From contig SAQE01000015.1 in the NCBI GenBank assembly GCA_004020545.1, positions 1 to 64,000 on the forward strand: a DNA stretch of 64,000 nucleotides, read 5' to 3'. Every line of letters starts with the position of its first letter. Position 1 is the stretch's first letter. Below are positions 13,548 through 43,015 of the stretch, in pieces. This DNA comes from Mesorhizobium sp. Its GTDB lineage: Bacteria > Pseudomonadota > Alphaproteobacteria > Rhizobiales > Rhizobiaceae. The notes beneath the pieces are model-generated. The model was given only the letters and a program-made list of their open reading frames with translations, was not told where the DNA came from and searched no databases. The position numbers and the translations under genes are program-made.

Positions 13548-13784
13548 ATGAGTGACACCGCAGAGCGCGTCAAGAAGATCGTCATCGAGCATCTCGGCGT
13601 CGATGCCGACAAAGTGACGGAGCAGGCGAGCTTCATCGACGATCTGGGCGCGGACAGCCTCGATACGGTCGAACTTGTCATGGCGTTCGAAGAAGAATTC
13701 GGCGTCGAGATTCCCGACGACGCCGCCGAGACCATCCTGACCGTCGGCGATGCCGTGAAGTATATCGACAAGGCCTCGGCCTGA
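13548..13784 (+). CDS. acpP: Acyl carrier protein
   Basis: A 78-residue acidic protein with the phosphopantetheine attachment motif [19 protein letters not shown] (Ser37). It carries growing acyl chains in fatty acid and lipid A synthesis. The start is supported by GACGAGGATGCCCAA upstream. It is followed 34 bp later by fabF. Confidence 0.98.
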
Positions 13785-13818: not shown

Positions 13819-15081
13819 ATGAGGCGTGTCGTCGTCACGGGCCTTGGCCTGCTTTCGCCGTTCGGCATGGGTTTCGAGCACAGCTGGAAGGAACTGCTTT
13901 CCGGCCGCAGCGCCGCCCGCCGCGTCACCGAATTCGAGGTGGACGACCTTGCCTGCAAGATCGCCCACGTCGTTCCGCGCGGCGACGGCTCCAACGGCAC
14001 CTTCAATCCCGAGGCTGTGCTCGAGCCGAAGGAACTGCGCAAGATCGGCGACTTCATCCTCTACGGCATCGCGGCCGCCGACGAGGCTCTGGCCGATTCC
14101 GGCTGGAAGCCCGAGACGCATGAGGATCAGTGCGCCACCGGCGTGCTGATCGGTTCCGGCATAGGCGGCATCGACGGCATCGCCGAGAACGCGATGATCC
14201 TGAAGGAGCGCGGTCCGCGCCGCATCAGCCCGTTCTTCATCCCCGGACAGATCATCAATCTGGTCTCCGGCCAGGTTTCCATCCGGCACGGGCTGAAAGG
14301 CCCGAACCATGCGGTCGTCACCGCTTGCTCGACCGGCGCTCACGCCATCGGCGACGCCGCGCGGTTGATCATGTGGGGCGATGCCGACGTCATGGTGGCG
14401 GGCGGCGCCGAGGCGCCAGTCACGCGGCTCTCCATGGCAGGGTTCGCTGCATGCCGGGCGCTCTCCACCGAGCGCAACGACACGCCCGAAATCGCGTCGC
14501 GTCCCTATGACCGCGACCGCGACGGCTTCGTCATGGGCGAGGGCGCCGGTGTCGTCGTCCTGGAAGAGCTCGAGCACGCCAAGGCGCGTGGCGCCAAGAT
14601 TTATGCCGAGGTCACCGGATATGGGCTGACCGGCGACGCCTATCACATCACCGCTCCGGCCGAGGACGGCGACGGCGCGTTCCGCTGCATGACGGCGGCG
14701 CTGAACCGGGCGAAGCTCTCGCCCGCCGACGTCGACTACATCAACGCGCATGGCACCTCGACCATGGCCGACACGATCGAGCTTGGCGCCGTCGAGCGGC
14801 TGGTCGGCAATGCGGCTTCCAAGATTTCGATGTCGTCGACCAAGTCGTCGATCGGCCATTTGCTGGGTGCCGCTGGTGCCGCGGAGGCGATCTTCTCGAT
14901 CCTCGCCATCCGCGACAACATCGCCCCGGCCACCATCAACCTCGACAATCCGGAACGCGAGACGGCGCTCGATCTCGTGCCGAACAAGCCGCGCCAGCGC
15001 CAGATCGATGTAGCGCTGTCGAACTCGTTCGGCTTCGGCGGCACCAACGCCTCGCTCGTCTTCCAACGTTACAATGGTTGA
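13819..15081 (+). CDS. fabF: Beta-ketoacyl-ACP synthase II
   Basis: A 420-residue condensing enzyme with the Cys-His-His triad: Cys170 (TACSTGAHA), His311 (NAHGTSTMADT) and His347 (SSIGHLLGA). It ends FGFGGTNASLVFQR. It elongates acyl-ACP with malonyl-ACP and is important for cis-vaccenate formation. GGGGAGG lies upstream of the ATG. Part of acpP-fabF-mltG. Confidence 0.97.
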   Translation: MRRVVVTGLGLLSPFGMGFEHSWKELLSGRSAARRVTEFEVDDLACKIAHVVPRGDGSNGTFNPEAVLEPKELRKIGDFILYGIAAADEALADSGWKPETHEDQCATGVLIGSGIGGIDGIAENAMILKERGPRRISPFFIPGQIINLVSGQVSIRHGLKGPNHAVVTACSTGAHAIGDAARLIMWGDADVMVAGGAEAPVTRLSMAGFAACRALSTERNDTPEIASRPYDRDRDGFVMGEGAGVVVLEELEHAKARGAKIYAEVTGYGLTGDAYHITAPAEDGDGAFRCMTAALNRAKLSPADVDYINAHGTSTMADTIELGAVERLVGNAASKISMSSTKSSIGHLLGAAGAAEAIFSILAIRDNIAPATINLDNPERETALDLVPNKPRQRQIDVALSNSFGFGGTNASLVFQRYNG

Positions 15082-26533: not shown

Positions 26534-28045
26534 ATGACTTCGAGACCTTCGATTGCCTTCGCCAAATTCGCCGCGCCCAAAAAAGGCAGCGTCTTCGTGC
26601 TTGCGGCCGACGGCGGCGGGCTTGGCGAGGCCGCGAAGGCCTGCGATCCGGCGGGTGCGCTTGCCCGCGCGTTTCCGGTCGCCGATTTCTCCGGCAGGTT
26701 CGCGAACTCGGCCGAGGTTCTGGCGCCGGAAGGGACGTCGGTCGACCGGCTGGTCGCGATCGGCGCTGGCAAGGTCGCGAATCTCGACGACCATGCCTGG
26801 CTGAAGCTCGGTGGCGCCGTTGCCGCCTCGTTGCGCAAGGCTGCGGAAGTCGCCGTGATCCTCGACCTGCCTGAACTTCAGCCGGACGGCAGGCAGGCGG
26901 CGAACCTTGCCGCGGGCATCCTTCTGCGCAGCTATGGCTTCGACAAGTATAAGACCAGGAAAGAGAGGGAAAACGGCCAGCCTGAAGCCAAAAAGGCCGA
27001 AGCGGCGAAGCCCGCCAAGATAACCATCCATTGCGCGAATCCCGCCGCTGCGAAAAAAGCCTTCGCCAGCGAAGAGGCGGTGACCGACGGCGTGCTGCTT
27101 GCGCGCGATCTCGTCAACGAACCGGCCAATGCGCTCGGTCCTGTCGAGTTCGCCGCGCGCACCAGGGAACTGGAGGCGCTCGGCGTCGAGGTCGAGATCC
27201 TCACCGAGAAGGAGATGAGGAAGCTCGGCATGGGCTCGCTGCTCGGCGTCGCGCAAGGCTCGCCGCGCGGCGCCCGCATCGCGGTGATGCAATGGAAGGG
27301 CGGCAAGTCCAAGGACGCACCGGTTGCCTTCATCGGCAAGGGGGTCACCTTTGACACCGGCGGCAATTCGATGAAGCCGGCCTCCGGCATGGAGGATATG
27401 AAAGGTGACATGGGCGGAGCCGCCGCCGTCACCGGCCTGATCCATGCGCTGGCCGCCCGCAAGGCCAAGGCCAATGTCGTAGGCGTCATCGGCCTGGTCG
27501 AGAACTCCGTCGACGGCCATGCGCAGCGACCGGGCGACATCGTCACCTCGATGTCGGGCCAGACCATCGAGGTGCTCAACACCGACGCCGAGGGCCGCCT
27601 CGTGCTGGCCGATGCGCTCTGGTACGCCAACGACCGATTCAAGCCGAAATTCATGGTCAATTTGGCGACGCTGACCGGCGCCATCATGGTCGCGCTCGGC
27701 CAGCACTATGCCGGCCTGTTCTCCAACAACGACGAACTGGCCGGCAGGCTCTTCGGCGCCGGCCAGGCGACGCAGGAGCGGCTGTGGCGCATGCCGCTCG
27801 GCGCCGAATACGACAAGCTGATCGATTCCAAGAACGCCGACATGAAGAACATCGGCGGCCGCTACGGCGGCGCCATCATCGCCGCGCAGTTCCTGCAGCG
27901 TTTCGTCAAGGACACGCCCTGGGCCCATCTCGACATCGCCGGCACGGCGATGGGCGCGCCGGCAAGCGAGATCAACCAGTCCTGGGGCTCGGGCTTCGGC
28001 GTCAGGCTGCTCGATCGGCTGGTGCGTGATCACTATGAGCACTGA
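26534..28045 (+). CDS. pepA: Leucyl aminopeptidase (cytosol M17 family)
   Basis: A 503-residue M17 dimetal aminopeptidase. The C-terminal catalytic domain has [15 protein letters not shown], the signature [17 protein letters not shown] and [11 protein letters not shown]. The N-terminal domain is divergent. It hydrolyses N-terminal amino acids; E. coli PepA also binds DNA in Xer recombination. It lies 28 bp upstream of holC, a common pairing. Confidence 0.95.
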
Positions 28046-28073
28046 GCGACATCGGGCGGCGTAGATCGGAGCG

Positions 28074-28523
28074 ATGGCCGACATCCTGTTCTATCACCTG
28101 ACGGAATCGACGCTCGAGGAGGCGCTGCCGGGCCTCCTCGAGCGCAGCGTCGAACGCGGCTGGCGCGCCGTCGTGCAGACCGGCACGGAGGAGCGGCGCG
28201 ACGCGCTCGACCAGCATCTGTGGACGTTCCGAGACGATTCCTTCCTGGCGCATGCCACCGACCGTGAAGCCTATCCGGCCGAGCAGCCGATCCTGCTCAC
28301 CACGGGCGAGGGCAACCCCAACGCCGCGCAGATCCGTTTCCTCGTAGATGGCGCCAGCCCGCCCGAGCTTTCCGGCTACGAGCGCGCCGTCTTCCTGTTC
28401 GACGGCCATGACGCGGCGCAGCTCGAGGGCGCGCGCGGCCATTGGAAGACGATGAAGGAAGCCGGCCACGCCGTCACCTACTGGCAGCAGACGCCGGATC
28501 GGCGGTGGGAGCGCAAGGCCTAA
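28074..28523 (+). CDS. holC: DNA polymerase III chi subunit
   Basis: A 149-residue HolC family protein: ADILFYHLTESTLEEALPGLLERS at the start, then GTEERRDALDQHLWTF and the conserved PNAAQIRFLVDGA. It links the clamp loader to single-strand binding protein. The pepA-holC order is typical of proteobacteria and supports the call. Confidence 0.93.
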   Translation: MADILFYHLTESTLEEALPGLLERSVERGWRAVVQTGTEERRDALDQHLWTFRDDSFLAHATDREAYPAEQPILLTTGEGNPNAAQIRFLVDGASPPELSGYERAVFLFDGHDAAQLEGARGHWKTMKEAGHAVTYWQQTPDRRWERKA

Positions 28524-28614: not shown

Positions 28615-29604
28615 ATGCGGATCAGAATCGTCGGAACCGGCAGGGCGGTGCCGGCACAGTGCATCGCCACGAGTGCGCTGGAGAAGAGGCTAGGCCTCGG
28701 AAGGGGCTCGCTCGAAGCCGCCACTGGCGTCGTCGAGCGTTATGTCTGCGAAGCCGAATCGCAGATCGATCTGGCCTGCGCCGCCGCGCGTCTTGCACTC
28801 GACGATGCCGGGCTCGATGCCGACGCTCTCGACCTGATCATCGGCGGCTGCGGCGTGCCTTACCAGCCGCTGCCGGCGACCGCGCCTCTGGTCATGCAGC
28901 GCCTTGGCCTCGCCGACGGTTCTGCAGCCGCCTTCGACGTCAACAGCACCTGCCTCGGCTTCCTCACCGCTTTCGAGACCGCCGGCCGCATGATCGAGGC
29001 GAAGCAATGCGAGACGGCGCTGGTGTTCTCTTCCGAGATAGCCTCGCGCGCGCTGCCGTGGCGGGACGCGCCGGAGGTCGCGGCGCTCTTCGGCGACGGC
29101 GCAGCGGCGGCGGTGTTGCGCAGGGCCGGACCCGGCGAGGGCAGGGTGGCGGCGAGCCTGATGCGCACCTATCCATCGGCGTGGGAAGCCTGCGGCATCG
29201 GTTCGGGCGGCACCCGTTTCGACTTCCAGAAGGAACGGGAAGAATTTGCCTGCCACAGCCTGTTCCACATGGACGGCAAGGAACTGTTCCGGCTGACCTC
29301 GCGTCATTTCAACGGCTTTGTCGATGCTTTGTTGGAGCGTGCCGGCTGGCGGCATGACGATGTCGACCTTATCGTGCCGCACCAGGCAAGTCCGTTGGCA
29401 CTTGCGCATATGGCGCGCCAGACCGGCTTCGCGCCGGAGAAGCTCGTCGACATCGCGGCCCGCTTCGGCAACCAGGTCGCGGCCTCCATTCCCTTTGCGC
29501 TCGATGTCGCGCGGCGCGAGGGCCGCGTGGCGCCCGGCACGAGGCTGCTCTTCCTCGGCACGTCCGCTGGCGTCTCCTTCGGCGGCATGGCGCTGGAGGC
29601 CTGA
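28615..29604 (+). CDS. Ketoacyl synthase III-like condensing enzyme (FabH/OleA superfamily)
   Basis: A 329-residue thiolase-fold protein with the full Cys-His-Asn triad of KAS III: Cys113 (NSTCLGFLTAF), His256 (VPHQAS) and Asn286 (RFGNQVAASIPFAL). It should perform a Claisen condensation or acyl transfer using acyl-CoA or acyl-ACP. Housekeeping fabH is not expected here, and the motif DVNSTCLGF differs from the GACAGF of FabH, so a pathway-specific role is likely. GGGGGGAGG precedes the ATG. First gene of a six-gene coupled operon that has no ACP of its own. Confidence 0.85.
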   Translation: MRIRIVGTGRAVPAQCIATSALEKRLGLGRGSLEAATGVVERYVCEAESQIDLACAAARLALDDAGLDADALDLIIGGCGVPYQPLPATAPLVMQRLGLADGSAAAFDVNSTCLGFLTAFETAGRMIEAKQCETALVFSSEIASRALPWRDAPEVAALFGDGAAAAVLRRAGPGEGRVAASLMRTYPSAWEACGIGSGGTRFDFQKEREEFACHSLFHMDGKELFRLTSRHFNGFVDALLERAGWRHDDVDLIVPHQASPLALAHMARQTGFAPEKLVDIAARFGNQVAASIPFALDVARREGRVAPGTRLLFLGTSAGVSFGGMALEA

Positions 29605-29606
29605 CG

Positions 29607-30587
29607 ATGGTCGTGCTCGTCACCGGCGCCAGCGGCTTCCTCGGCTCCCATGTGCTCAAGCGGCTAGCGGCATCGGGCACTCTGGCGCTCGGGCTTGGCC
29701 GTGACACGGCACGCTGCGCGGCGCTGGAGGCCGCCGGCCATCGCATCATCCACTACGATCTCGCGCAGCCGCTCGATTGCGCGCTCGATCCGCGGCTCGG
29801 CAGGGTCGAACGGATCATTCATTGCGCGGCGCTCTCTGCCCCCTTCGGCCGGCTTGCGGATTTCCAAACGGCCAATGTCATTGCAACGCAGAACCTCGTC
29901 GATTTCGCGATGCGCCGGGGCGTCAGCCGCTTCGTCCATATTTCCAGCCCGTCCGTCTGTTTTGCCTTTCGCGACCAGCTCGGTCTGACCGAGGACATGG
30001 CGCTGCCCGATCCCGTCAATCACTATGCGAGCACCAAGCGTGAGGCGGAGCGGATCGTGCTAGGCGCGCCCGAAATCCATCCGGTGGTGCTGCGGCCGCG
30101 CGGCATCTACGGCGCCGGCGATCGCGCGCTGCTGCCGCGCCTGATCAGGGCGGCGAAGAGCCGGCCGCTGCCGCTGTTTCGTGGCGGCCGGGCGGCAATC
30201 GATCTCACCCATGTCGACGACGTCGTCGATGCCGTCATGGCGGCGCTCGCGGCACCCAAGGAGATCGAGGGCCAGATATTCAACATCTCCGGCGGCGAGG
30301 CGCTGCCGGTGCGCCGCATCGCCGACGAGGCCTGCGCCCGCGCCGGGCTCACGGCGCGCTGGCGGCCGATGCCGCTGGCGCCGGCCATGCTCGCGGCGGG
30401 CCTGATGGAAACGGTGGCGCTCATGCTGCCCGGCCGGCCCGAGCCACCGGTCACGCGTTATGGGCTCGGCCTCTTCGCGTATGCGCAAAGCCTGGATATC
30501 TCCAAGGCGAAGCTCGCGCTTGGCTGGACGCCAAAGACTTCCTTCGAACAGGGGCTCGATCGCACCTTCGGTGGGACCGTGCCATGA
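29607..30587 (+). CDS. NAD(P)-dependent extended short-chain dehydrogenase/epimerase
   Basis: A 326-residue extended SDR. It has the Rossmann motif TGASGFLG (6-13), an HISSPS segment supplying the catalytic Ser, Tyr140-x3-Lys144 (YASTK) and the downstream RPRGIYGAGD. Its layout resembles 3-beta-hydroxysteroid dehydrogenase/OleD-type reductases as much as sugar epimerases. Beside a ketoacyl synthase it may reduce a beta-keto intermediate; this is inferred from context. It starts 2 bp after the synthase and overlaps the next gene by 4 bp. Confidence 0.8.
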   Translation: MVVLVTGASGFLGSHVLKRLAASGTLALGLGRDTARCAALEAAGHRIIHYDLAQPLDCALDPRLGRVERIIHCAALSAPFGRLADFQTANVIATQNLVDFAMRRGVSRFVHISSPSVCFAFRDQLGLTEDMALPDPVNHYASTKREAERIVLGAPEIHPVVLRPRGIYGAGDRALLPRLIRAAKSRPLPLFRGGRAAIDLTHVDDVVDAVMAALAAPKEIEGQIFNISGGEALPVRRIADEACARAGLTARWRPMPLAPAMLAAGLMETVALMLPGRPEPPVTRYGLGLFAYAQSLDISKAKLALGWTPKTSFEQGLDRTFGGTVP

Positions 30588-31417
30588 AGATCGTCTTCGC
30601 CAACAGCGCCTGGGTCGGCGCCGCCGAGCGGCTCATCCTGCGCGGTGGCAGCTGGCGGAGCGTGCGGCTGCGCGTCCGCTACGGGCTGATCTTTCATGCC
30701 TCAGAAGGCCCGGTGCTGGTCGATACCGGCTATACGCCGGAGGCGCTGACCGGCGAGCGGCGCGGCCGCATGCTGCGCCTTTACGGCGCGCTGCTGAAAC
30801 CAAAGCTCAACGCCGCCGAACAGGTCCTGCCGGTGTTGAAGCGCTTCGGTCTTTCGCCGGATGACATCCGCACCGTCATCGTCACCCATTTCCACGCCGA
30901 CCATATTTCCGGCCTGTCACTGCTTCGGAAGGCGCGCTTCATCGCCAGCGACGCTGCCTGGGCGCGGGTTAAATCCCGGACGCCCCGGCAGAACCTCCGC
31001 CACGGCGTCTTCACCGAGCTCTTCCCGGAGGATTTCGAGACGCGTTTGGACGGTCTATCTTCCAAGCAGCACGTGGAAGCGAGAAATGGCGTACCCGGCG
31101 GCGCCGATCTCTTCGGCGATGGCAGCGTGATCGCGGTCGATCTTCCCGGCCACGCCGACGGTCAGTTCGGCCTGCTCTTTGCCGGTTTCGAACGGCCGCT
31201 GCTCTACGCCGTCGACGTGCAATGGCTGCTCAGAGCCTTGACCGAAAACCGCGCGCCGGGCTTTCCAGCCACGCTGATCGCCGAGGATGCAGCGGCAATC
31301 GAGCCGACCAGCGCCATTTTGCGCTGTTTCCTCGCCACAGGCGGCGAGGTGATGCTTTGCCATGATCCTGCGCCGACGCTCTACGATCTCCCGATGAGCG
31401 ATCCGGTGGCCGGATGA
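30584..31417 (+). CDS. Metallo-beta-lactamase-fold hydrolase (AHL lactonase-like layout)
   Basis: A 277-residue MBL-fold enzyme. The zinc motif THFHADHISG supplies His102, His104, Asp106 and His107. A later DLPGHADGQFGLLF supplies a further His, DVQW an Asp, and a C-terminal CHDP a His. A segment of the PGHxxGxxGLL type is also found in acyl-homoserine lactonases, so a lactone or thioester substrate is plausible but unproven. It is coupled by 4-bp overlaps on both sides. Confidence 0.8.
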   Translation: MKIVFANSAWVGAAERLILRGGSWRSVRLRVRYGLIFHASEGPVLVDTGYTPEALTGERRGRMLRLYGALLKPKLNAAEQVLPVLKRFGLSPDDIRTVIVTHFHADHISGLSLLRKARFIASDAAWARVKSRTPRQNLRHGVFTELFPEDFETRLDGLSSKQHVEARNGVPGGADLFGDGSVIAVDLPGHADGQFGLLFAGFERPLLYAVDVQWLLRALTENRAPGFPATLIAEDAAAIEPTSAILRCFLATGGEVMLCHDPAPTLYDLPMSDPVAG

Positions 31418-32670
31418 ACGCTCTGGCGGAAGCGATCGGCTCGTTCGCGCAGACACAATGGGTATCGCGCAAGAACCGCGCGGACTTCGAGCGTTGGCAA
31501 GCGGCGGCCTTGCGCCGTTTCCTCGACCGCGACCTGCCGCGCGCGCCGTTCTATGGCAGGGCGCCAACGCGTCTGACCGATCTGCCGGTCACCGACAAGG
31601 CGCTGCTGATGGGCCGCTTCGGGGATTTCAACATCCACGGCCTCACCGCCACGGAAGCCTGGGCGGCTCTGGCCCGCGACGGCCGCGCCGGTTCGCTCAC
31701 CGTCGGCGCCAGCACCGGCACGTCGGGCAATCGCGGCCTGTTCGTGATTTCCGAGGCGGAAAACTACCGCTGGCTGGGCGCGATCCTCGCCAAGGCGGTG
31801 CCCGATCTTCTGTGGCGCGGCATACGTGTCGCCGTCATCCTGCCGCAAAACACCGGGCTCTATGACAGCGCCCGCAAATCGCGGCTGATCAAGCTCGCCT
31901 TCTTCGATCTGACGCTCGGGCCGGAACACTGGCGCGAGGCGCTGGAAGCCTTCGAACCGACGGTGATCATCGCGCCTCCAAAGATGCTCAGGCATTTCGC
32001 CACCGAGGGTTTTCGGCTCACGCCAAAACGCATTTTCTCGGCTGCCGAGACGCTCGACCCGGTTGACCGTCCGGTCATCGAAGATTTCTTCCGGCTGCCG
32101 CTCGATCAGATATACATGGCGACCGAAGGACTGCTTGCGGTGACGTGCCGGCAGGGCGGCCTGCATCTTGCCGAAGACTCGGTTTTCTTCGAATTCGAGC
32201 CGGCGGGCGAGGGACTGGTGACGCCGCTGGTCACCTCTTTCCACCGCCAGACGCAAATCATGGCGCGCTACCGCATGAACGACCTGCTGCGGCTTTCGGG
32301 GCAGCCCTGCCGCTGCGGCTCGCCGCTGCGCTGCGTGGATGAAATTGTCGGCCGCATGGACGATGTTTTCCGTCTTGCTTCGGCAAACGGCCCGATCTTC
32401 GTCACGCCGGACGTGCTGCGCAACGCCGTGCTCAAGGCCGACCGCCGCATCGACGATTTTCGCCTGATCCAGACCGCGCCGGACGCGGTCGAACTCAAGC
32501 TGCCGGCGACACTGGCCGACGACGCGGCTGCCGCTGCACATGAGACGGTGCGCAGGTTGTTGGAAGCGCGAAAGGCCGACGCGACCGTCGCTCTTGTCCG
32601 CGCTCCGCTGCCGCTGGAGACAAGCCGGAAACTGCGCCGCGTGGAATGCCGTCTGGAGCGGGCGCCATGA
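31414..32670 (+). CDS. F390 synthetase/PaaK-like adenylate-forming enzyme
   Basis: A 418-residue protein of the phenylacetate-CoA ligase/coenzyme F390 synthetase group. It has the P-loop-like [11 protein letters not shown], an A5-type YMATEG, and [10 protein letters not shown] followed by a Cys-rich CRCGSPLRC, then [10 protein letters not shown]. Such enzymes activate a carboxylate as an adenylate. F390 itself is not expected in a rhizobium, so the substrate is unknown; it could be the acid made by the preceding genes. ATGA overlaps at both ends. Confidence 0.75.
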
Positions 32671-33812
32671 ATAGGGCAGGCGCCATCGAAAGGCCGGCGC
32701 AGCAGGCCGACCGGGTCGAAAACAAGCCGGAAAAGGTCGAAGCTTTCGTAAGCCTTTTCAACGCGATACCGGTTCGTAATCTCGTCGCCAATCTCACCGC
32801 AAGGGTCGAGACTTTCGAAGCCGCCGGTCGGACCTTCCCGCTCACGCTCAACGACGCCAGCGAGGCACCGAATTGCTACATCTGCTGTCCGTCCAGCGCC
32901 TATGTCGGCTATGCGATAGACGAGACTCGCAACTTCGCGGCCCACCCGTGGCTTCGGAGCGCGCTCAAGGCGCTGATCGGCGCTTGTGCACCGCTGGTCA
33001 GGGCAAGCGGCCTCGACCATCAGGTGCAGGTCAACAACTGGCTCTATTCGACCAATCCGGTGCCGCTGCTCGACCGGCAAACGATTGCCGCGCTTCGCTC
33101 GGCGCTGGTCGCGCGCTTCCCCGACCGCGCCATCGTCATCCGCTCGCTGAACGAGATCGCCGATCCGGCGAGTATAGCCGCCTTGAAGGCGGAAGGTTTC
33201 CGCATGCTGGCGGCGCGGCAGATCTACATCATCGCCGACCGTAGTTCAGCACCCGCCATGACCAAGAACCTGAAACGCGACCGCAAGCAGCTTGGCGCCA
33301 CGCATTTCGAAAAGGTCGGCGATGCCGATTTCACCGAGGCCGATTATGCGCGCGCCGAGCAGCTCTACAACATGCTCTATCTCGACAAATACACGCCTCT
33401 CAATCCGCACTACACGGCTCGCTATATTGCCGAAATGCACCGACGCGGCATCATCAGCCTCGCCGGCCTGCGCCGCCCGGGCGGCGAACTGGTCGCCGTC
33501 ACCGGCCTGTTCGAGAATGGCGGCACGCTCACCCAGCCGATCGTCGGCTACGACACCAGCCTGCCGCTCGGCGAGGGGCTCTACCGCATGGTGATGGCGA
33601 TGGGGCAGGACCACGCCACGGCGCGCGGCCTGTTCTTCAACATGAGCGCCGGCGCAGCAGGCTTCAAGCGCCTGCGCGGCGCGGTGGCCGCGATCGAGTA
33701 CATCGCCGTCTATGCCAGCCATCTTCCGCGCCGCCGGCGTCTTGCTATCCGCGTCATGGAGGCTGTGCTGGCGCGGGTCGGCATCCCTCTGCTCCGGAGG
33801 TTCGAACTGTGA
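32667..33812 (+). CDS. GNAT/FemAB-like N-acyltransferase
   Basis: A 381-residue protein. The C-terminal part ([59 protein letters not shown]) looks like an acyl-CoA N-acyltransferase fold of the Acetyltransf_6/BioF2 type. An N-terminal half of similar size may be a second, degenerate copy. It could attach the activated acyl group to an amine. The ATG at 32667 overlaps the previous stop (ATGA); a frame opening at 32646 is less likely. Confidence 0.55.
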
Positions 33813-34810
33813 GCGAACCCGGCGACCACGCAAAGGATATTTGGCAGGCGGTGGCGCTCTCGGCCGACATCGGCATGCGGCCGAAGCGCGTTTTCTTCGA
33901 GGGCGCGCCGCTGGTGCTGTTCCGCTCGGTGCAAGGCATTGTCGCGCTGTTCGACCGCTGCCCGCACCGGCTGGTGGAGCTGTCGACCGGCAAGGTGGTC
34001 GGCGGCGAGATCGAATGCCCTTATCATGGCTGGCGCTATGACGGCGAAGGCCGCTGCACCGCCATTCCCGGCCATGTCGGCGCAATGCCGCGTTACCGGG
34101 TCCGCCGTTACGCCGCGATCGAGCGCGACGGTGTCGTATTCATCTCCTCCGGCGCGCCGCAGGGCGAGCCCTACCTCCATTGCATGCAGGGCAAGGACGT
34201 CATCGTGCGGCGGGTGCGCAGCTCGACGCAGTCGACGGTCATCGACGCCGCCGAGAACATTCTGGATGCCACCCACACTCATTTCACCCACAAGGGCCTG
34301 CTGCGTGGCCTGACCTCGAAACGTCATCTGGTACGGGTCGAGGTGACGGGCGGCGAGGGTTGGGTCGAGGCCTGCTACACCGGCGAGGATAGACAGCAAG
34401 GATTGATTAGCCGGCTGCTGGAGGGCGAGCGGGCGAAAACCGTCGGCCGCTTCCGCCATCCCGGCATCGCCGAGCTCGAATATTGGGCCAAGCACGGGTT
34501 GGTGCTCGCCACCACCTTTCATCTGCGCCAGGCGGACGAGCACACCGTCGAGGGCGTCGGTTGGCTGATCGGCCGGCGCCAGGGCCTGCTCGGCGAGCTG
34601 AAGGCGCTCGCCTTCAAGCCGCTGTTCAACATCGCGCTGCATCAGGACCGCCGGGTGCTGAAATCGGCAAGCGACAACGCCCGCTTCGCGCCACAAGCAC
34701 TGCCCGTGATCGGCCCGCTCGATTTCCTGCGCCGGGATATCGCGGCGATCATGGAAGGGAAACTGCCGGCGGCGGCGGGTGAGCCGAGGGTGCATCAGAT
34801 CGAATTGTGA
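33809..34810 (+). CDS. Rieske non-heme iron oxygenase, alpha-subunit type
   Basis: A 333-residue protein. The Rieske 2Fe-2S cluster ligands are Cys51-x-His53 and Cys70-x2-His73 (CPHR, CPYHGW). The mononuclear iron site motif [13 protein letters not shown] supplies Asn150, Asp153, His156 and His161. It would hydroxylate, demethylate or desaturate a small molecule, needing a reductase not encoded nearby. The GTG start overlaps the GNAT-like stop (GTGA) and follows GGAGG. Last gene of the operon. Confidence 0.85.
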
Positions 34811-34816
34811 ATTAAA

Positions 34817-34860
34817 GTTCACAGAGCTTGATTTGTTTGCCTCTGTGAACTATAGTTCAC
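34817..34860. promoter_or_regulatory. Operator palindromes upstream of the toxin-antitoxin locus
   Basis: GTTCACAGAG (34817-34826) and CTCTGTGAAC (34841-34850) form a perfect 10-bp inverted repeat. Overlapping it is a perfect 16-bp palindrome, GTGAACTATAGTTCAC (34845-34860), ending 2 bp before the toxin ATG. The repeated GTTCAC half-sites fit autoregulation by the antitoxin. Set in the 52-bp gap after the Rieske gene. Confidence 0.75.
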
Positions 34861-34862
34861 GA

Positions 34863-35150
34863 ATGATAGAGGTGCGGCAGACCGCCGATTTCACCAGATG
34901 GCTCGGCGGTCTTCGCGACACGGCGGCGCGCATGCGTATAGTCGCTCGTATCCGCCGGGTCGAAATCGGGAATATCGGCGATACCAAGTATTTCGATGGC
35001 ATCGGCGAGCTCGCATCGACCACGGCCCGGGCTACCGGGTCTATTTCGTGAAAGTTGGAAATGCAGGTGATCATCCTGCTCTGTGGTGGCGACAAGTCCA
35101 GCCAGAGGCGTGACATCGCCAAGGCGAAACAGATGGCAAAGGAGATATGA
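34863..35150 (+). pseudogene. Frameshifted RelE/HigB-type toxin (HI1419 family)
   Basis: The frame starts MIEVRQTADFTRWLGGLRD and continues ARIRRVEIGNIGD, as in HI1419-type toxins, but reaches a TGA at 35049-35051. The family sequence RIDHGPGYRVYFV resumes in another frame after a one-base loss at GAGCTCGC (about 35007-35014). The tail VIILLCGGDKSSQRRDIAKA returns to the first frame near 35063-35067. Two compensating indels thus leave the end of a 95-codon gene in frame but make the product non-functional. Sequencing error cannot be excluded. Confidence 0.8.
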
Positions 35151-35458
35151 CGATGCCTCTCGAAACCAGTCGCTTCGATATCCTGGATCATCTGAAAACC
35201 CCAGAAGATCGCCTGGCCTATATCGAGGCTGCCTTTGAGGATGGTGACCCAGCACTCATTACGCACGCTCTTGGCGATGTGGCGCGTTCCATCGGCATGA
35301 CGGCGGTCGCGAAAGAAGCTGGCGTAACCCGGGAAGCGCTTTACAAGGCGCTGAGCGAAAAGGGCGACCCGCGTCTGAGCACGTTGCTGGGTGTCACCAA
35401 GGCGCTGGGTCTGCAACTCTATGCGAAACCCTCCAATCCCGATTCCTTCAGGACATGA
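35147..35458 (+). CDS. HigA-like antitoxin (HI1420 addiction module family)
   Basis: An intact 103-codon frame, giving 101 or 103 residues depending on the ATG used (35147 or 35153). The N-terminal segment SRFDILDHLKTPEDRLAYIEAAFEDGD is followed by a helix-turn-helix near residues 45-95 (VAKEAGVTREALYKALSEKG, LGVTKALGL). This is the antidote pattern that accompanies HI1419-like toxins. Its ATG overlaps the toxin TGA. With the toxin broken it is an orphan that may still repress its own operator. Confidence 0.85.
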   Translation: MTMPLETSRFDILDHLKTPEDRLAYIEAAFEDGDPALITHALGDVARSIGMTAVAKEAGVTREALYKALSEKGDPRLSTLLGVTKALGLQLYAKPSNPDSFRT

Positions 35459-35473
35459 AGGAATGAGGAGGCA

Positions 35474-36631
35474 CTAGCTCGGCCCGTTCCACTCGATATC
35501 ACGGGTCGACGCCGCCTGCAGGCTAATCCCTTGGCGCCAAGCTGCTCCAGCAATCTCGGCCAGCGCCGTCCATTGCGCCTTCACCGGCGCAGGATCGCCT
35601 GGCCAGTCGAGCAATTCCTGGCCTTCGCGCATCGCCTTCCGAAAGCGGGCGAGACCACCTGAGCGCAAAGCCGCCGGCAGCCCGTAGATCCACATTGCAA
35701 GCCGCACCGTTTGCGGTGTGGTCACGTCGGGCTCGACCTCCGGCCCGTCCCCAAGCACCGCATCGGCAAACCGCGCGGGATCGCGAAAAAAATGCAAGCC
35801 GCTCACGGCGCGCGGATTGCATTCCAGCGGCAGCACACGGCCGTCCGCCTCGCGCATCAGGTCGAAGGAAATCTGCCCTGTCCACGACGTGCCCGCCACG
35901 ATGCGCTCGACCAATTCGCGTGCTGCCCCATCCTCGACCCGTTCGAAGAAGATGCCGGCGCCTCTACCGGCGCGATAGGGCGACCTGTAGAGCGCCAGCG
36001 CCTTGAGCCTGCCCGCGCGCGCCACCGCATAGGCGCTGATCTCCTCGCCATCGATGAAACGCTGCGCGACCCAAGGCATGGCGGGCGAGGGGGCGATGGC
36101 ATCGAGAAAATCCGGCGTCGGACGTAGCAGCACCTGGCTGGCGAAACGCGACCAGACCGGCTTGAACACCAGCTCGCGCGAGCGGCGGCGCACCGCTTCA
36201 ACATCGTCACGTGAATTGAGCAGCACCGTCTTCGGCACTGCGAGCCCGAGACGCTCGGCTAGCCGGATAAAGGTGTGCTTGTTGTGGACCTCCGCCAGCA
36301 ACTCGATGCCGGGTGCCAACAGCGGCGCGGGCACCGCGCGCCCGCGCCAGGCCAGCGCGAGATAAAACACCTCCTCGCAGGTCGGGATGACCAGCTCTAT
36401 ACCTTCGGCCCGGATCAGCCCCTCGACCGCCTCGGCATAAGCCTGCGGCGCGAAGCGCGGCGGCGGCAGGCGATGGTAGCGCGCGCAGACCTTGCTGGCG
36501 GCTGCGATCGGTCGTGCCGGCGTGTCGGCCAGGATCACCCGGCGGCCGGCGCCATGAAGCAGGCGTGCCAGATGCAGCGCCACCGGCGCGCGCGCCCCGG
36601 TGATGAGCACGGTCTTGTCAGCCCCCGGCAT
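35474..36631 (-). CDS. ATP-grasp ligase (carbamoyl phosphate synthase-like)
   Basis: A 385-residue protein. An N-terminal Rossmann-like preATP-grasp domain (TVLITGARAPVALHLARLLH) precedes an ATP-grasp fold with HNKHTFIRLAERLGLAVPKT, ELVFKPVWSRFASQVL and metal-binding DLMREADGRVLPLECNPRAVSGLHFF. Such enzymes join carboxylates to amines or other nucleophiles through an acyl phosphate. It is convergent with the six-gene operon, from which only the toxin-antitoxin locus separates it, so it may belong to the same pathway; this is an inference. Confidence 0.8.
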   Translation of the reverse strand: MPGADKTVLITGARAPVALHLARLLHGAGRRVILADTPARPIAAASKVCARYHRLPPPRFAPQAYAEAVEGLIRAEGIELVIPTCEEVFYLALAWRGRAVPAPLLAPGIELLAEVHNKHTFIRLAERLGLAVPKTVLLNSRDDVEAVRRRSRELVFKPVWSRFASQVLLRPTPDFLDAIAPSPAMPWVAQRFIDGEEISAYAVARAGRLKALALYRSPYRAGRGAGIFFERVEDGAARELVERIVAGTSWTGQISFDLMREADGRVLPLECNPRAVSGLHFFRDPARFADAVLGDGPEVEPDVTTPQTVRLAMWIYGLPAALRSGGLARFRKAMREGQELLDWPGDPAPVKAQWTALAEIAGAAWRQGISLQAASTRDIEWNGPS

Positions 36632-39712: not shown

Positions 39713-42700
39713 TCAATCCCACACGAGCAGCAGCTTGCGCCAGAAGGCGTTGGACGGCATCGGCTTCGAACCGCGCGGCAGCCGGATCGCCAGATAGATC
39801 GTCAGCCATTTGCGATCGATCTCCCGCACCGAAACCTTCAGGTCATGCAGCTCGAAAGGTTTCGAAACCCGTGTCCATCCGGAGAACGCCAAGGCGCCGA
39901 CGGGAGCGTCGCGGTTCCAAACGAGCTTTTCCTCCGGCCTGCCGAGAGCCATGGCGAACTCGAATGGCGACGCCTCCTCGTGGGCGATCTCCACCGTCGC
40001 GATGGCGCTCCTGGCAAATGCCGGGAAAGCGGCGTTGAGCGCGGCTACGACCGGGCCATGCGTGCTCGGTCGCAGGAATATGCCGCCATTGTCGCCAGCG
40101 ACGAGAAGCAACGGCAGTTCGGAGGGATAATTGGTCACAAGCGTCGAATGCTTCAGTTCGTCGCCCGTCAGCCGCCGCGTGCGTTGGCGCGATTGCGGCG
40201 CGTTGAGGCGTGGGCGCCTCGCGCCGGGCGAAACGACACTGCGGATCTTGATGCTTGAAAAACCGCCGAGCACCGGCGCGTCGGGCCGATTGCCGCCGCA
40301 TCTTACGGCAAGCAGCAAATCGCGCCTGGCTGACGCCGGCGTATCGACGCTCGCCATGATTTCGCGCGGTTCGTGCGGGCGGCTGACATCGGCCCAGCCG
40401 CTTCCATCGCCATTTTCGAGGAACCGAGCGAGATCGCTGAAAGTCCGGTTTTCCGCATCGACGATCGCGATCTGAAACTGCGCCGGCCCGGTCAATGCTT
40501 CGTCGAGGTAAACCCAGCAATCCGCGCCGACTGTGCCGGGTGGGCAGACGCCCTTCAGCAAAGCCATTGAGACAATGTTGCCCTTGGCCTGGACGAACAG
40601 TTGGTCCGGCGATTGTTCGACATAGGTCAACAGATCGGGATCGGCATCCGGATACGAGCCGACATGGGCAAGGCGCAGGACTTCGGCCGGGAGGTATCGC
40701 TCGCGCTGAAGCGCGGAATGCAGCTCCGGCACGGTGTCCTCGGCCGTCGCATCGAGCAGGTCGACGACACCCAGGGTGAAGTCCGATCGCCCGGAATGGG
40801 CGAGAAGCGAAATCGCCGTATCGGGCCTGCCTTCGCGCGCCGCAATCTCGGCCAGCAACTGCATCGCGTCGGTGGAATTGGCGGGAGCCGAGCTTAGCCG
40901 CAGATAGCGGTCATCCTTGACGCGCAGCTCCAGGTTCCAGAGGTTGAGTTCCTTTTCATGATCGGCGGTGTTCGAGCTGATGCCGAGCTGCACGAACATG
41001 TCGGTGTGCGCGAATTTGTGCTTTCGGAACACATTGATGATCGGCCTGCGGTTCCTCAGCCACTCTGCATTCCGGTTCATGCCCGTCGGCGAGGAGCGGT
41101 ACCAGTAGAGCGGCTCCGGGATCGTGACGATCGTGAGGCCTGCCAGATCGGCGCGCAGGAAGAATTCCCAATCGCTCGCCGAAAAGCCGCGCTCTTCGTT
41201 GAGGTACCCTACGTTGTCGAACACCTCACGCCGGAACATCGCATTGGCATCGCCATAGGGATTGGTGATCAGGGCGATGTCCGGAGGGCCGCCGACCGGG
41301 AAATAGAGCATATAGCCGCTTTTGGTGTCCGGCGGCACGAAGGGCTCATTGAGCCACTTGGCAAAGGTCGTGCAGATGTCGGCGCCGGACTTTTGCATAC
41401 CGGCGACGAATGTGCTGACCGCATTCGGAAACAGTGCGTTGTCGTCATCCAGGAACAGGATCAGCGAACCCTTCGCGGCGCGAATTCCGGTGTTGCGCGC
41501 CTTGCCGAGGAAACCGTTCTTCTGCCGGATGATGCGCCAGCCGCGCCGCTTGAACTCGGGCTCCAGCTCCGCCAGCAGCTCGATTGTCTCCGGATCCGTG
41601 CTGCCGTCATCGACGACGATCAATTCGATGTTGGGGTAGTCCTGGCGCCGAACCGAGGCAATCGCCTGCGGCAGCAGACGCGCCCGATTATAATGCGCCG
41701 TGATGATCGAAACGAGCGGCAGAGCGCCTCGGCCGCGGCCGGCGGCCTTGCCGGGCTGCCGGCACAGCTTGGCGTGCAGCTTGCTCCAGGCCTTCTCGCG
41801 TGCGTCGCGGTTCTGCAGCGGCTTTGCAGGGCGGAACGAGGGGCTCTCCAGCGTTGAAGCGATCTTGGCCGCGATCCCGGAAGGCGACGCCTCCATCATG
41901 ACGGCGTCGGCGGATTTCGGATGGAGCAGATCACGCACGCTGCCGACATCCGTCGCGATGAACGGAATCTCCTCGTCGAGGCACGCCACGACATCCAGCG
42001 GAAGTTGCGCGGCCGAATGGGTGATTGCCACCAGCGCACGACTCTGCCGTAGGTAACGGAAGATTTCCGGCACGTCCCGGATGGGCAGGAGCTTCAGTTT
42101 GAACGGCCATTGCCGGGCCCGCCGAACGATCATGCCGCCCGAGTGCTCGCCGAGCACATGCCCAAACGCTCCGACGATCGTCACGGCGATGTCGGTCACA
42201 CCGGCGTCGGCCAGGCGATCGAGCGCGTCGCAGAACAGCGTCAGTCCGCTGCGCGCTTCCGTGCCTGAAAAATGCACCACTTCCGCAGTCGGCCGATCTC
42301 GTGGCCTGTAGCGGTCGAGGGTGAAGTCCGAACGCCACTCCTCAGGCTCAAGCGGCGTCGCGATGTGGCGGCTGGCGGGCAGCGTCCATCCCGCCTTGGT
42401 CATCCAGTCGAGCAGGGACTGGCCGGTTACCACGATATGGTCGCAGGTTTCCGCCGACATCCTTTCCATATGCGCGACGGTCATCTGCTCCTTACGCTCG
42501 ACCGCCCTGGCATTCGCCTCCAGTTTCCACATCAGTGGCTCGTGCGCGAGCACCACGAGCGCGGGAGGATCGGGAAACACGCCCGTGCGCTTGGCGACGG
42601 TCGGGAAGTGCGCCAGCCCGCCCTCGAGGGAAAAATAGACGACGTCGAAAGCGTTCTGCTTGAGGTAATGATAGACGGCTACAGAATTCTTGTCGCTCGA

Positions 42701-43015
42701 CTCCATTCCGCGCAGCAATTCGGGCGATGACGGCAGCAGTTCGAGCCGCACCAGGAAATTGTCGAAGCACCATTTGGCGAGCCTCGCGATCTCCTGCTCG
42801 TCGGGCTGGCTGCCGAGTGGGTTTGCCACCCATAGCAGCGTGACCGTGTCACCGATCTTCGCCAGATGCTGCGCCAGCGCGTAGGTCGCCGAGCCGGGAT
42901 CGGCAGTCACCGTCGAGCCGAACGCGACCTCCGAGACGACACACACATTGCGGGGCTTCTGGCTTGCCTGTCGCTTGCGCGCGGAAATCGCGCCTGCCTT
43001 AGAACCAATGCTCAA
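39713..43015 (-). CDS. Giant bifunctional glycosyltransferase (GT-B plus GT2)
   Basis: A 1100-residue protein with a TTG start after GAGGGGG. Residues about 20-420 look like a GT-B glycosyltransferase (DTVTLLWVANPL, LGEHSGGMIVRRARQWPFKL, PLDVVACLDEEIPFIATDVGS). Residues 432 to about 690 are a GT2 domain with LVSIITAHYNRARLLPQAI, VDDGSTD and a DDD metal motif at 523-525. A helical repeat-like region and a C-terminal domain shared with the protein at 44644-47346 follow. It probably adds two sugars to a cell-surface polymer. No transmembrane segment is obvious. Confidence 0.8.
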   Translation of the reverse strand: MSIGSKAGAISARKRQASQKPRNVCVVSEVAFGSTVTADPGSATYALAQHLAKIGDTVTLLWVANPLGSQPDEQEIARLAKWCFDNFLVRLELLPSSPELLRGMESSDKNSVAVYHYLKQNAFDVVYFSLEGGLAHFPTVAKRTGVFPDPPALVVLAHEPLMWKLEANARAVERKEQMTVAHMERMSAETCDHIVVTGQSLLDWMTKAGWTLPASRHIATPLEPEEWRSDFTLDRYRPRDRPTAEVVHFSGTEARSGLTLFCDALDRLADAGVTDIAVTIVGAFGHVLGEHSGGMIVRRARQWPFKLKLLPIRDVPEIFRYLRQSRALVAITHSAAQLPLDVVACLDEEIPFIATDVGSVRDLLHPKSADAVMMEASPSGIAAKIASTLESPSFRPAKPLQNRDAREKAWSKLHAKLCRQPGKAAGRGRGALPLVSIITAHYNRARLLPQAIASVRRQDYPNIELIVVDDGSTDPETIELLAELEPEFKRRGWRIIRQKNGFLGKARNTGIRAAKGSLILFLDDDNALFPNAVSTFVAGMQKSGADICTTFAKWLNEPFVPPDTKSGYMLYFPVGGPPDIALITNPYGDANAMFRREVFDNVGYLNEERGFSASDWEFFLRADLAGLTIVTIPEPLYWYRSSPTGMNRNAEWLRNRRPIINVFRKHKFAHTDMFVQLGISSNTADHEKELNLWNLELRVKDDRYLRLSSAPANSTDAMQLLAEIAAREGRPDTAISLLAHSGRSDFTLGVVDLLDATAEDTVPELHSALQRERYLPAEVLRLAHVGSYPDADPDLLTYVEQSPDQLFVQAKGNIVSMALLKGVCPPGTVGADCWVYLDEALTGPAQFQIAIVDAENRTFSDLARFLENGDGSGWADVSRPHEPREIMASVDTPASARRDLLLAVRCGGNRPDAPVLGGFSSIKIRSVVSPGARRPRLNAPQSRQRTRRLTGDELKHSTLVTNYPSELPLLLVAGDNGGIFLRPSTHGPVVAALNAAFPAFARSAIATVEIAHEEASPFEFAMALGRPEEKLVWNRDAPVGALAFSGWTRVSKPFELHDLKVSVREIDRKWLTIYLAIRLPRGSKPMPSNAFWRKLLLVWD

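Follow-up and report, generated by a model that had tools for sequence, protein, structure and literature searches.

What does the operon at positions 28615-34810 of this stretch make, and how much of it behaves as a unit? The stretch analysed here as a whole (the window: 64,000 nucleotides of contig SAQE01000015.1 from Mesorhizobium sp.) carries six co-directional genes at this place, followed by a convergent ATP-grasp ligase gene that extends to 36631. A preliminary description of the locus had treated the six genes as one set; over 111 loci the tail of this set varies, which rules out a fixed six-gene (or seven-gene) unit, and what is kept instead is a four-gene core accompanied by an exchangeable module. 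The core consists of a type III ketoacyl synthase (KAS III), an extended short-chain dehydrogenase/reductase (SDR), a metallo-beta-lactamase-fold (MBL) hydrolase and an F390-synthetase/PaaK-like ligase; the window has these four genes side by side together with one head enzyme of the module, the ATP-grasp ligase. We see about an even chance, judging from the enzyme families, that the product of the core is a hydroxylated fatty-acyl compound (most likely a lipid, either secreted or in the membrane) to which the module would add a polar head.

The core was followed through the window, 80 loci (the best 80 of 588 confirmed), 7 plasmid regions, 14 genome stretches and 9 further regions; the loci outside the window and the best 80 were hand-picked from 53 plasmid records (40 of them listed) and from genome profile searches, and G080 and G026 (over the cut-off; G155 belongs to the window's genus) and G548, G577 and G692 (137-145 bits) are left out of the sample. 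Two reduced sets of 68 and 46 rows were obtained by dropping near-copies, the 46 representatives lying below 60% ligase identity; L037 and L155 are one E. coli operon. The full core is present in 105 of the 111 loci. The six incomplete loci, several of which are short contigs, either have no KAS gene that could be found (L039, L085, L151) or have only the ligase among the core genes (L071, L116, L152). The order KAS-SDR-MBL-ligase is co-directional in 96 of the 105 full-core loci, where the ATP-grasp gene may stand second, and the nine exceptions comprise eight loci with the ligase on the opposite strand or apart and one, from Fusobacterium (L153), in which the KAS gene comes last. In this Fusobacterium vincentii locus (L153, 2207-9150), genes for a short-chain dehydrogenase, a family-21 glycosyltransferase and a 215-amino-acid protein are followed by SDR, MBL, ligase and KAS. 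Gaps of 20 bp or less separate KAS from SDR in 94/95 cases, SDR from MBL in 97/98 and MBL from ligase in 88/92 (same-strand pairs spaced -200 to 400 bp in relatives); since the core gaps are this short nearly throughout the relatives, the tight packing is not due to chance. The preliminary description had staked its single coordinated pathway on the genes co-occurring in other genomes: they do, and the core is kept as a unit far beyond the Rhizobiales.

The head enzyme, in contrast to the core, is exchanged. Exactly one of five families is found in 102 of the 111 loci when the whole locus is scanned, none in 9 and two in no locus: an ATP-grasp ligase in 73, a DUF3419 protein in 10, a PAP2 protein in 8, a GT1 glycosyltransferase in 7 and a sulfotransferase in 4. 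If the families were distributed independently, ATP-grasp genes should coincide with one of the other four heads in 19.1 of the 111 loci, 12.6 of the 68 and 7.9 of the 46; no overlap is observed, and the probability of this under independence is 4e-19 for all loci and 8e-8 for the 46 representatives. The concatenated cores of 53 loci, 48 of them labelled, were placed on a quick maximum-likelihood tree whose support comes from the Shimodaira-Hasegawa-like approximate likelihood ratio test (SH-aLRT) only; along this tree the head label changes 11 times, where the minimum possible is 4 and the mean of shuffled labels 16.3; heads thus cluster on the core tree, yet they swap repeatedly. Related cores with unlike heads include L143 (ATP-grasp) beside L034 and L091 (DUF3419), and the trio L073 (sulfotransferase), L077 (DUF3419) and L032 (ATP-grasp). 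All seven GT1 loci additionally carry a convergent VTT-domain membrane protein, which we take to be of the DedA type. On the megaplasmid of Pseudomonas FeN3W, a 530-amino-acid protein that matches no Pfam or NCBIfam model is encoded directly after the core (L035, 9316-10908), possibly a further head enzyme.

The acyltransferase and oxygenase of the window follow the type of head. GNAT homologues occur in 65/73 ATP-grasp loci, 2/10 DUF3419 loci and 0/19 loci with the other three heads, and Rieske homologues in 60/73, 5/10 and 0/19, respectively. Taken together, GNAT accompanies ATP-grasp or DUF3419 in 67/83 loci compared with 0/19 for the others (21/33 compared with 0/8 among the 46 representatives), an association with Fisher p values of 2e-11 for all loci, 5e-7 for the 68 and 0.0013 for the 46 representatives. 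Where one of the five heads is present, GNAT and Rieske genes are confined to ATP-grasp and DUF3419 loci; this distribution suggests that the GNAT enzyme acts on an amine that the amino-type heads alone bring.

In the window itself, the seven genes are intact and closely spaced, and purifying selection acts on each of them, with ratios of nonsynonymous to synonymous substitution rates (dN/dS) of 0.11-0.28 against four other Mesorhizobium loci. Six lie on the plus strand: (i), the KAS III-type condensing enzyme (28615-29604, 329 amino acids; Pfam PF08541/PF08545), whose best NCBIfam model is PRK07204 (294.9 bits, under its cut-off of 402); (ii), the extended SDR reductase (29607-30587, 326 amino acids; Epimerase 123.1 bits, 3Beta_HSD 72.1 bits); (iii), the MBL-fold hydrolase (30584-31417, 277 amino acids; Lactamase_B), which resembles N-acyl homoserine lactone (AHL) lactonases and reaches 56.2 bits on the AttM-type lactonase model, under the cut-off of 390; (iv), the F390-synthetase-related, PaaK-like adenylating enzyme (31414-32670, 418 amino acids); (v), the GNAT acyltransferase of the Acetyltransf_6 family (32667-33812, 381 amino acids; PF13480, 31.3 bits over a cut-off of 22), for which the open reading frame (ORF) lister gives an alternative longer form from 32646; and (vi), a Rieske oxygenase of the VanA/dicamba-monooxygenase type (33809-34810, 333 amino acids; PF00355 69.1 bits, PF19112 23.8 bits), with dicamba O-demethylase, SxtDIOX and SxtT as its nearest solved structures. 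The ATP-grasp ligase (35474-36631, 385 amino acids) is encoded on the minus strand and matches ATP-grasp_3 (PF02655) with 24 bits over a cut-off of 23.2 and PRK06849 with 331 bits under a cut-off of 406. KAS and SDR genes are 2 bp apart and the other four junctions are 4-bp overlaps, all as the preliminary description had placed them; the 91-bp gap preceding KAS yielded no sigma-70-like site. The adenylating enzyme, a single-copy gene in the genome, passes the model of F390-synthetase-related proteins (TIGR02304, 271.4 bits over a cut-off of 251.9) and has no Pfam match. It belongs to the TIGR02304 family by this cut-off, but the name of the model assigns no reaction, and no description of the family was found in the literature searched (here and below, open-licence papers).

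The preliminary description had also read the catalytic residues of the KAS III, SDR, MBL and Rieske proteins as intact, and the relatives bear this out. The KAS triad Cys113, His256 and Asn286 is kept in 100/100 relatives, Tyr140 and Lys144 of the SDR in 104/104, and the MBL metal ligands H102, H104, D106, H107, H190, D211 and H260 in 108/108. E238, D290, G313, R314 and K406 of the adenylating ligase are likewise invariant (109/109), as are E270, C271, N272, P273 and R274 of the ATP-grasp protein (61/61); the GNAT protein has 31 invariant residues over 20 relatives, and the Rieske iron-sulfur motif CxH...CxxH is present in 58 of the 62 homologues called.

How could these enzymes work together? 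From their families, we infer a pathway in which the KAS would condense acyl thioesters from fatty-acid synthesis to a beta-keto product, the SDR would turn the keto group into a hydroxyl, the MBL enzyme would release the free acid by hydrolysis of the thioester or of a lactone, and the F390-like enzyme would adenylate this acid and hand the acyl group on; the least certain part is that the MBL enzyme would be a thioesterase and the ligase a re-activator of the freed acid. The head of the window would be of the amino kind, with the ATP-grasp ligase attaching to the product a unit resembling an amino acid, the GNAT enzyme acylating the amine of this unit and the Rieske enzyme oxidising the product, while elsewhere DUF3419, PAP2, GT1 glycosyltransferase or sulfotransferase would stand in for ATP-grasp. 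That the product may be a lipid is suggested by the E. coli tail, where PAP2, fatty-acid hydroxylase and fatty-acid desaturase genes follow the core (L037, L155) beside tyrosine tRNA genes and the hydroxylase best matches the ornithine-lipid hydroxylase OlsE (66.6 bits, cut-off 475), by the VTT protein of the GT1 loci, by DUF3419, presumably the family of the betaine-lipid enzyme BtaA which transfers an aminocarboxypropyl group, and by the family-21 glycosyltransferase of the Fusobacterium locus (69.9 bits), which we take to be of the Pfam family of ceramide glucosyltransferases. More tentatively, the core might build an undescribed non-glycerol backbone, either a 2-alkyl-3-hydroxy acyl unit with two chains or a comparable scaffold that resembles a ceramide but is formed without serine palmitoyltransferase; its polar head (amino-acyl, aminocarboxypropyl, phospho, glycosyl or sulfo) would be swapped on a fixed pathway across phyla, including roughly an eighth of complete E. 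coli genomes. As for bacterial sphingolipid synthesis, a family scan limited to nine proteins of the window turned up no aminotransferase of the serine palmitoyltransferase type.

Several observations weigh against a lipid with exchangeable heads. Among curated models, the GT1 protein fits a rifamycin glycosyltransferase best (111.8 bits against a cut-off of 800), and its acceptor therefore need not be a lipid; PAP2 only weakly resembles a sphingolipid head-group enzyme, phosphoinositol-dihydroceramide synthase (20.6 bits, E 2.4e-4); and the operon has no dedicated acyl carrier. Nine loci have none of the five head genes, of which L047, L109 and L116 end at contig ends and L153 has the family-21 glycosyltransferase nearby, uncounted. 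The five families were chosen only after the loci had been inspected, and the locus sample leans toward relatives of the window. Four of the 62 Rieske homologues (L083, L101, L102, L106), all beside DUF3419, have no CxH...CxxH in the ORF calls, whose start positions may be mis-called; because these four have no iron-sulfur motif, the link between Rieske and DUF3419 comes down to one clear case. Finally, the core itself is not described in the literature searched, nor is a product, activity or structure of it known from there, in keeping with the preliminary description, which knew of no characterised product.

Aminolipids (ornithine, glutamine and glycine lipids made by OlsB/OlsA or OlsF) would share with the proposed product an amino head on hydroxy-acyl chains, provided that the chemistry proposed here holds. 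In the excerpt of PMC11631085 used here, OlsB-type enzymes are PF13444 N-acyltransferases and the routes described consist of two enzymes, with KAS, MBL and F390-like enzymes all absent; the window GNAT, in contrast, matches PF13480 only, not the OlsB-type PF13444.

Could the core instead form a beta-lactone, as in olefin or lipstatin synthesis, by unrelated enzymes? The KAS would couple two acyl chains in a head-to-head manner, the SDR would reduce the product, the ligase would close the beta-lactone in the manner of OleC and the MBL enzyme would open or edit it, while ATP-grasp and GNAT would put an acylated amino acid on the side-chain hydroxyl, as in lipstatin. We consider this unlikely, although the enzyme superfamilies match OleA, OleD and OleC and, as in OleABCD and OleACD clusters, a condensing enzyme, an extended SDR, an adenylating enzyme and a hydrolase share a single tight operon; here, the ligase is of the PaaK/F390 type, an MBL fold takes the place of OleB, and GNAT, Rieske and head enzymes are added. 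The likeness to OleA, OleD and OleC drawn by the preliminary description survives in part for the SDR, whose best curated model is OleD (NF042422) with 171.9 bits, far below the cut-off of 580 and the 639.9 bits of a real OleD (for the E. coli SDR, too, an OleD model fits best, with 154.3 bits); for the other two enzymes, kinship is not supported. The KAS reaches 119.2 bits on the OleA model PRK09258 (cut-off 285), compared with 463.2 bits for a real OleA. An HQxS motif is common to the cluster KASs (99/100) and real OleAs (HQVS), unlike the HQAN of FabH, and the best solved match of the KAS is a ketosynthase other than FabH. At the column of OleA Glu117, however, the 100 cluster KASs have Ile (53) or Leu (47) before the proline, whereas two real OleAs have Glu, and the excerpt of PMC7064751 consulted names this Glu117-Pro pair, contributed by the partner subunit, as essential. 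The ligase matches no olefin beta-lactone synthetase (OleC) model, which a real OleC passes with 1007.6 bits, and no likeness between it and a real OleC could be detected (E 2.1 in BLASTP, a probability of 2.4% in a profile comparison); a lactonase-like hydrolase would, moreover, counteract a neighbouring lactone-forming enzyme. Because the OleA glutamate is absent from 100/100 KAS proteins, the core is not an ole cluster. Membership in the ole clusters is ruled out by this column, the curated cut-offs and the OleC comparison together, with real ole clusters (L162-L165) as controls, of which the genes from L162 and L165 pass their own models.

Lipstatin offers a further parallel. LstC-F are part of the lipstatin pathway, which differs from the core in that the latter has one KAS, no nonribosomal peptide synthetase, another ligase family and a hydrolase. 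What speaks for the parallel is the condensation by KAS-III-like enzymes, LstAB, which join two long acyl-CoAs according to the excerpt of PMC12141560 available, and a reduced, amino-acid-decorated acyl product. The cluster KAS itself is set apart from the OleA, FabH and BioZ-like enzymes in a 28-protein tree, with support of 91/92, just below the firm-support mark of the program.

A duplicate of FabH can be discarded as well: the KAS scores 173.2 bits on the FabH model TIGR00747, under the cut-off of 292.1, where the genome's own FabH scores 403.6 bits, and it shares the Cys-His-Asn triad, its binding residues being different. At the CoA/ACP-binding positions (ACP, acyl carrier protein), which we take to be W32, R36, HQAN and R249 in E. 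coli FabH, the window KAS has S32, A36, HQAS and L261; among the 100 relatives, the FabH-type Trp is found in 31 and the Arg in 15, and Ser replaces the Asn of HQAN in 99. The best solved matches are the ketosynthases 4v2p (E 1e-48) and corallopyronin CorB (4yuc, E 7e-47), only slightly ahead of an ordinary FabH (4ryb, 2e-46). These two ketosynthases presumably belong to large polyketide systems, and such a system is absent at the window locus.

In alkylquinolone synthesis, PqsA, PqsD and PqsE act as ligase, KAS and MBL thioesterase, and a similar division of labour is conceivable here: the PaaK-like ligase would make the CoA ester of an aryl or other small acid, the KAS would extend it, the SDR would reduce it and the MBL enzyme would be the thioesterase, the tail enzymes decorating a signal or antibiotic. 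The relatives of the ligase among solved structures are phenylacetate-CoA-ligase-like, the two-metal site of the MBL enzyme is complete, the GT1 of the tail is akin to antibiotic glycosyltransferases and many copies lie on large plasmids. We nevertheless regard this route as rather improbable: no Pqs-named NCBIfam model was matched (up to E 0.001; no direct comparison with Pqs proteins was made), and the fatty-acid hydroxylase and desaturase of the E. coli tail suit long acyl chains. Most improbable by far is a catabolic or detoxifying gene set, for although degradation pathways often employ Rieske, lactonase-like MBL and PaaK-like enzymes and the nearest solved structure of the Rieske protein is dicamba O-demethylase, a condensing KAS with its three catalytic residues in all 100 relatives, the acyltransferase and the transferases of the head type (glycosyl, sulfo, DUF3419) speak for biosynthesis, and the Rieske gene is missing from many core loci.

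The core, for which a hydroxylated fatty-acyl lipid remains our preferred product, is widespread. The nearest named relatives of the window are in Mesorhizobium, with ligase identity up to 88%. A profile of the ligase has hits in 57 of the 146 genomes from the window's genus (E up to 1e-60) and in 13 of 398 genomes of a phylum-wide draw (E up to 1e-30), 3 of the latter belonging to that same genus. Core loci occur in Alpha-, Beta- and Gammaproteobacteria, Bacilli and Fusobacterium; two further labels, Flavobacteriaceae (L070) and Candidatus Sulfopaludibacter (L102), come from draft genomes with alphaproteobacterial-looking clusters and are likely due to mis-binning. Of 5426 complete E. coli genomes, 672 carry the stretch from KAS to hydroxylase (671 places chromosomal, 2 on plasmids), and in the asymptomatic E. 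coli strain ABU 83972 the core sits between narI and a tyrosine tRNA pair adjoining purU. Among plasmid records, 53 match the ligase and 20 the KAS (E up to 1e-40); because 19 of these 20 occur among the 40 ligase-matching records listed (of 53), KAS and ligase travel together on plasmids.

The operon is preceded by a pepA-holC pair (26534-28523), which six ligase-less genomes of the same genus retain, while none of 12 other window proteins has a match in the ~6 kb past holC in these six; since the operon-less genomes keep the pair and not the genes that follow, this flank may be a site of gene turnover. The statement in the preliminary description that no ACP lies nearby was inexact: the genome's best ACP match is at 13548-13784, ~15 kb upstream, followed by a beta-ketoacyl synthase (13819-15081), and we take both for housekeeping fatty-acid genes. 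Between the Rieske and ATP-grasp genes lies an HI1419/HI1420-type toxin-antitoxin pair (34779-35458) that the preliminary description did not mention. With 110.8 bits, the antitoxin clears the cut-off of its model (53.7), and it has a homologue at the equivalent spot in 10 of the 111 loci, all Mesorhizobium; the toxin ORF matches only positions 2-50 of a 95-position profile, with 39.4 bits under a cut-off of 62.85. Further downstream, an 1100-amino-acid ORF (39713-43015) looks, by eye, as if it joined two glycosyltransferase domains in one protein.

If the proposed chemistry is correct, the core would define an overlooked class of bacterial lipids or lipid-like products, although 672 of the 5426 complete E. 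coli genomes and 57 of the 146 genomes from the window's genus carry its genes, and a function would be gained for the F390-synthetase-related family TIGR02304. The repeated swaps of heads on a fixed core would then amount to a natural experiment in lipid head-group exchange, in which near relatives with unlike heads would yield direct predictions for mass spectrometry.

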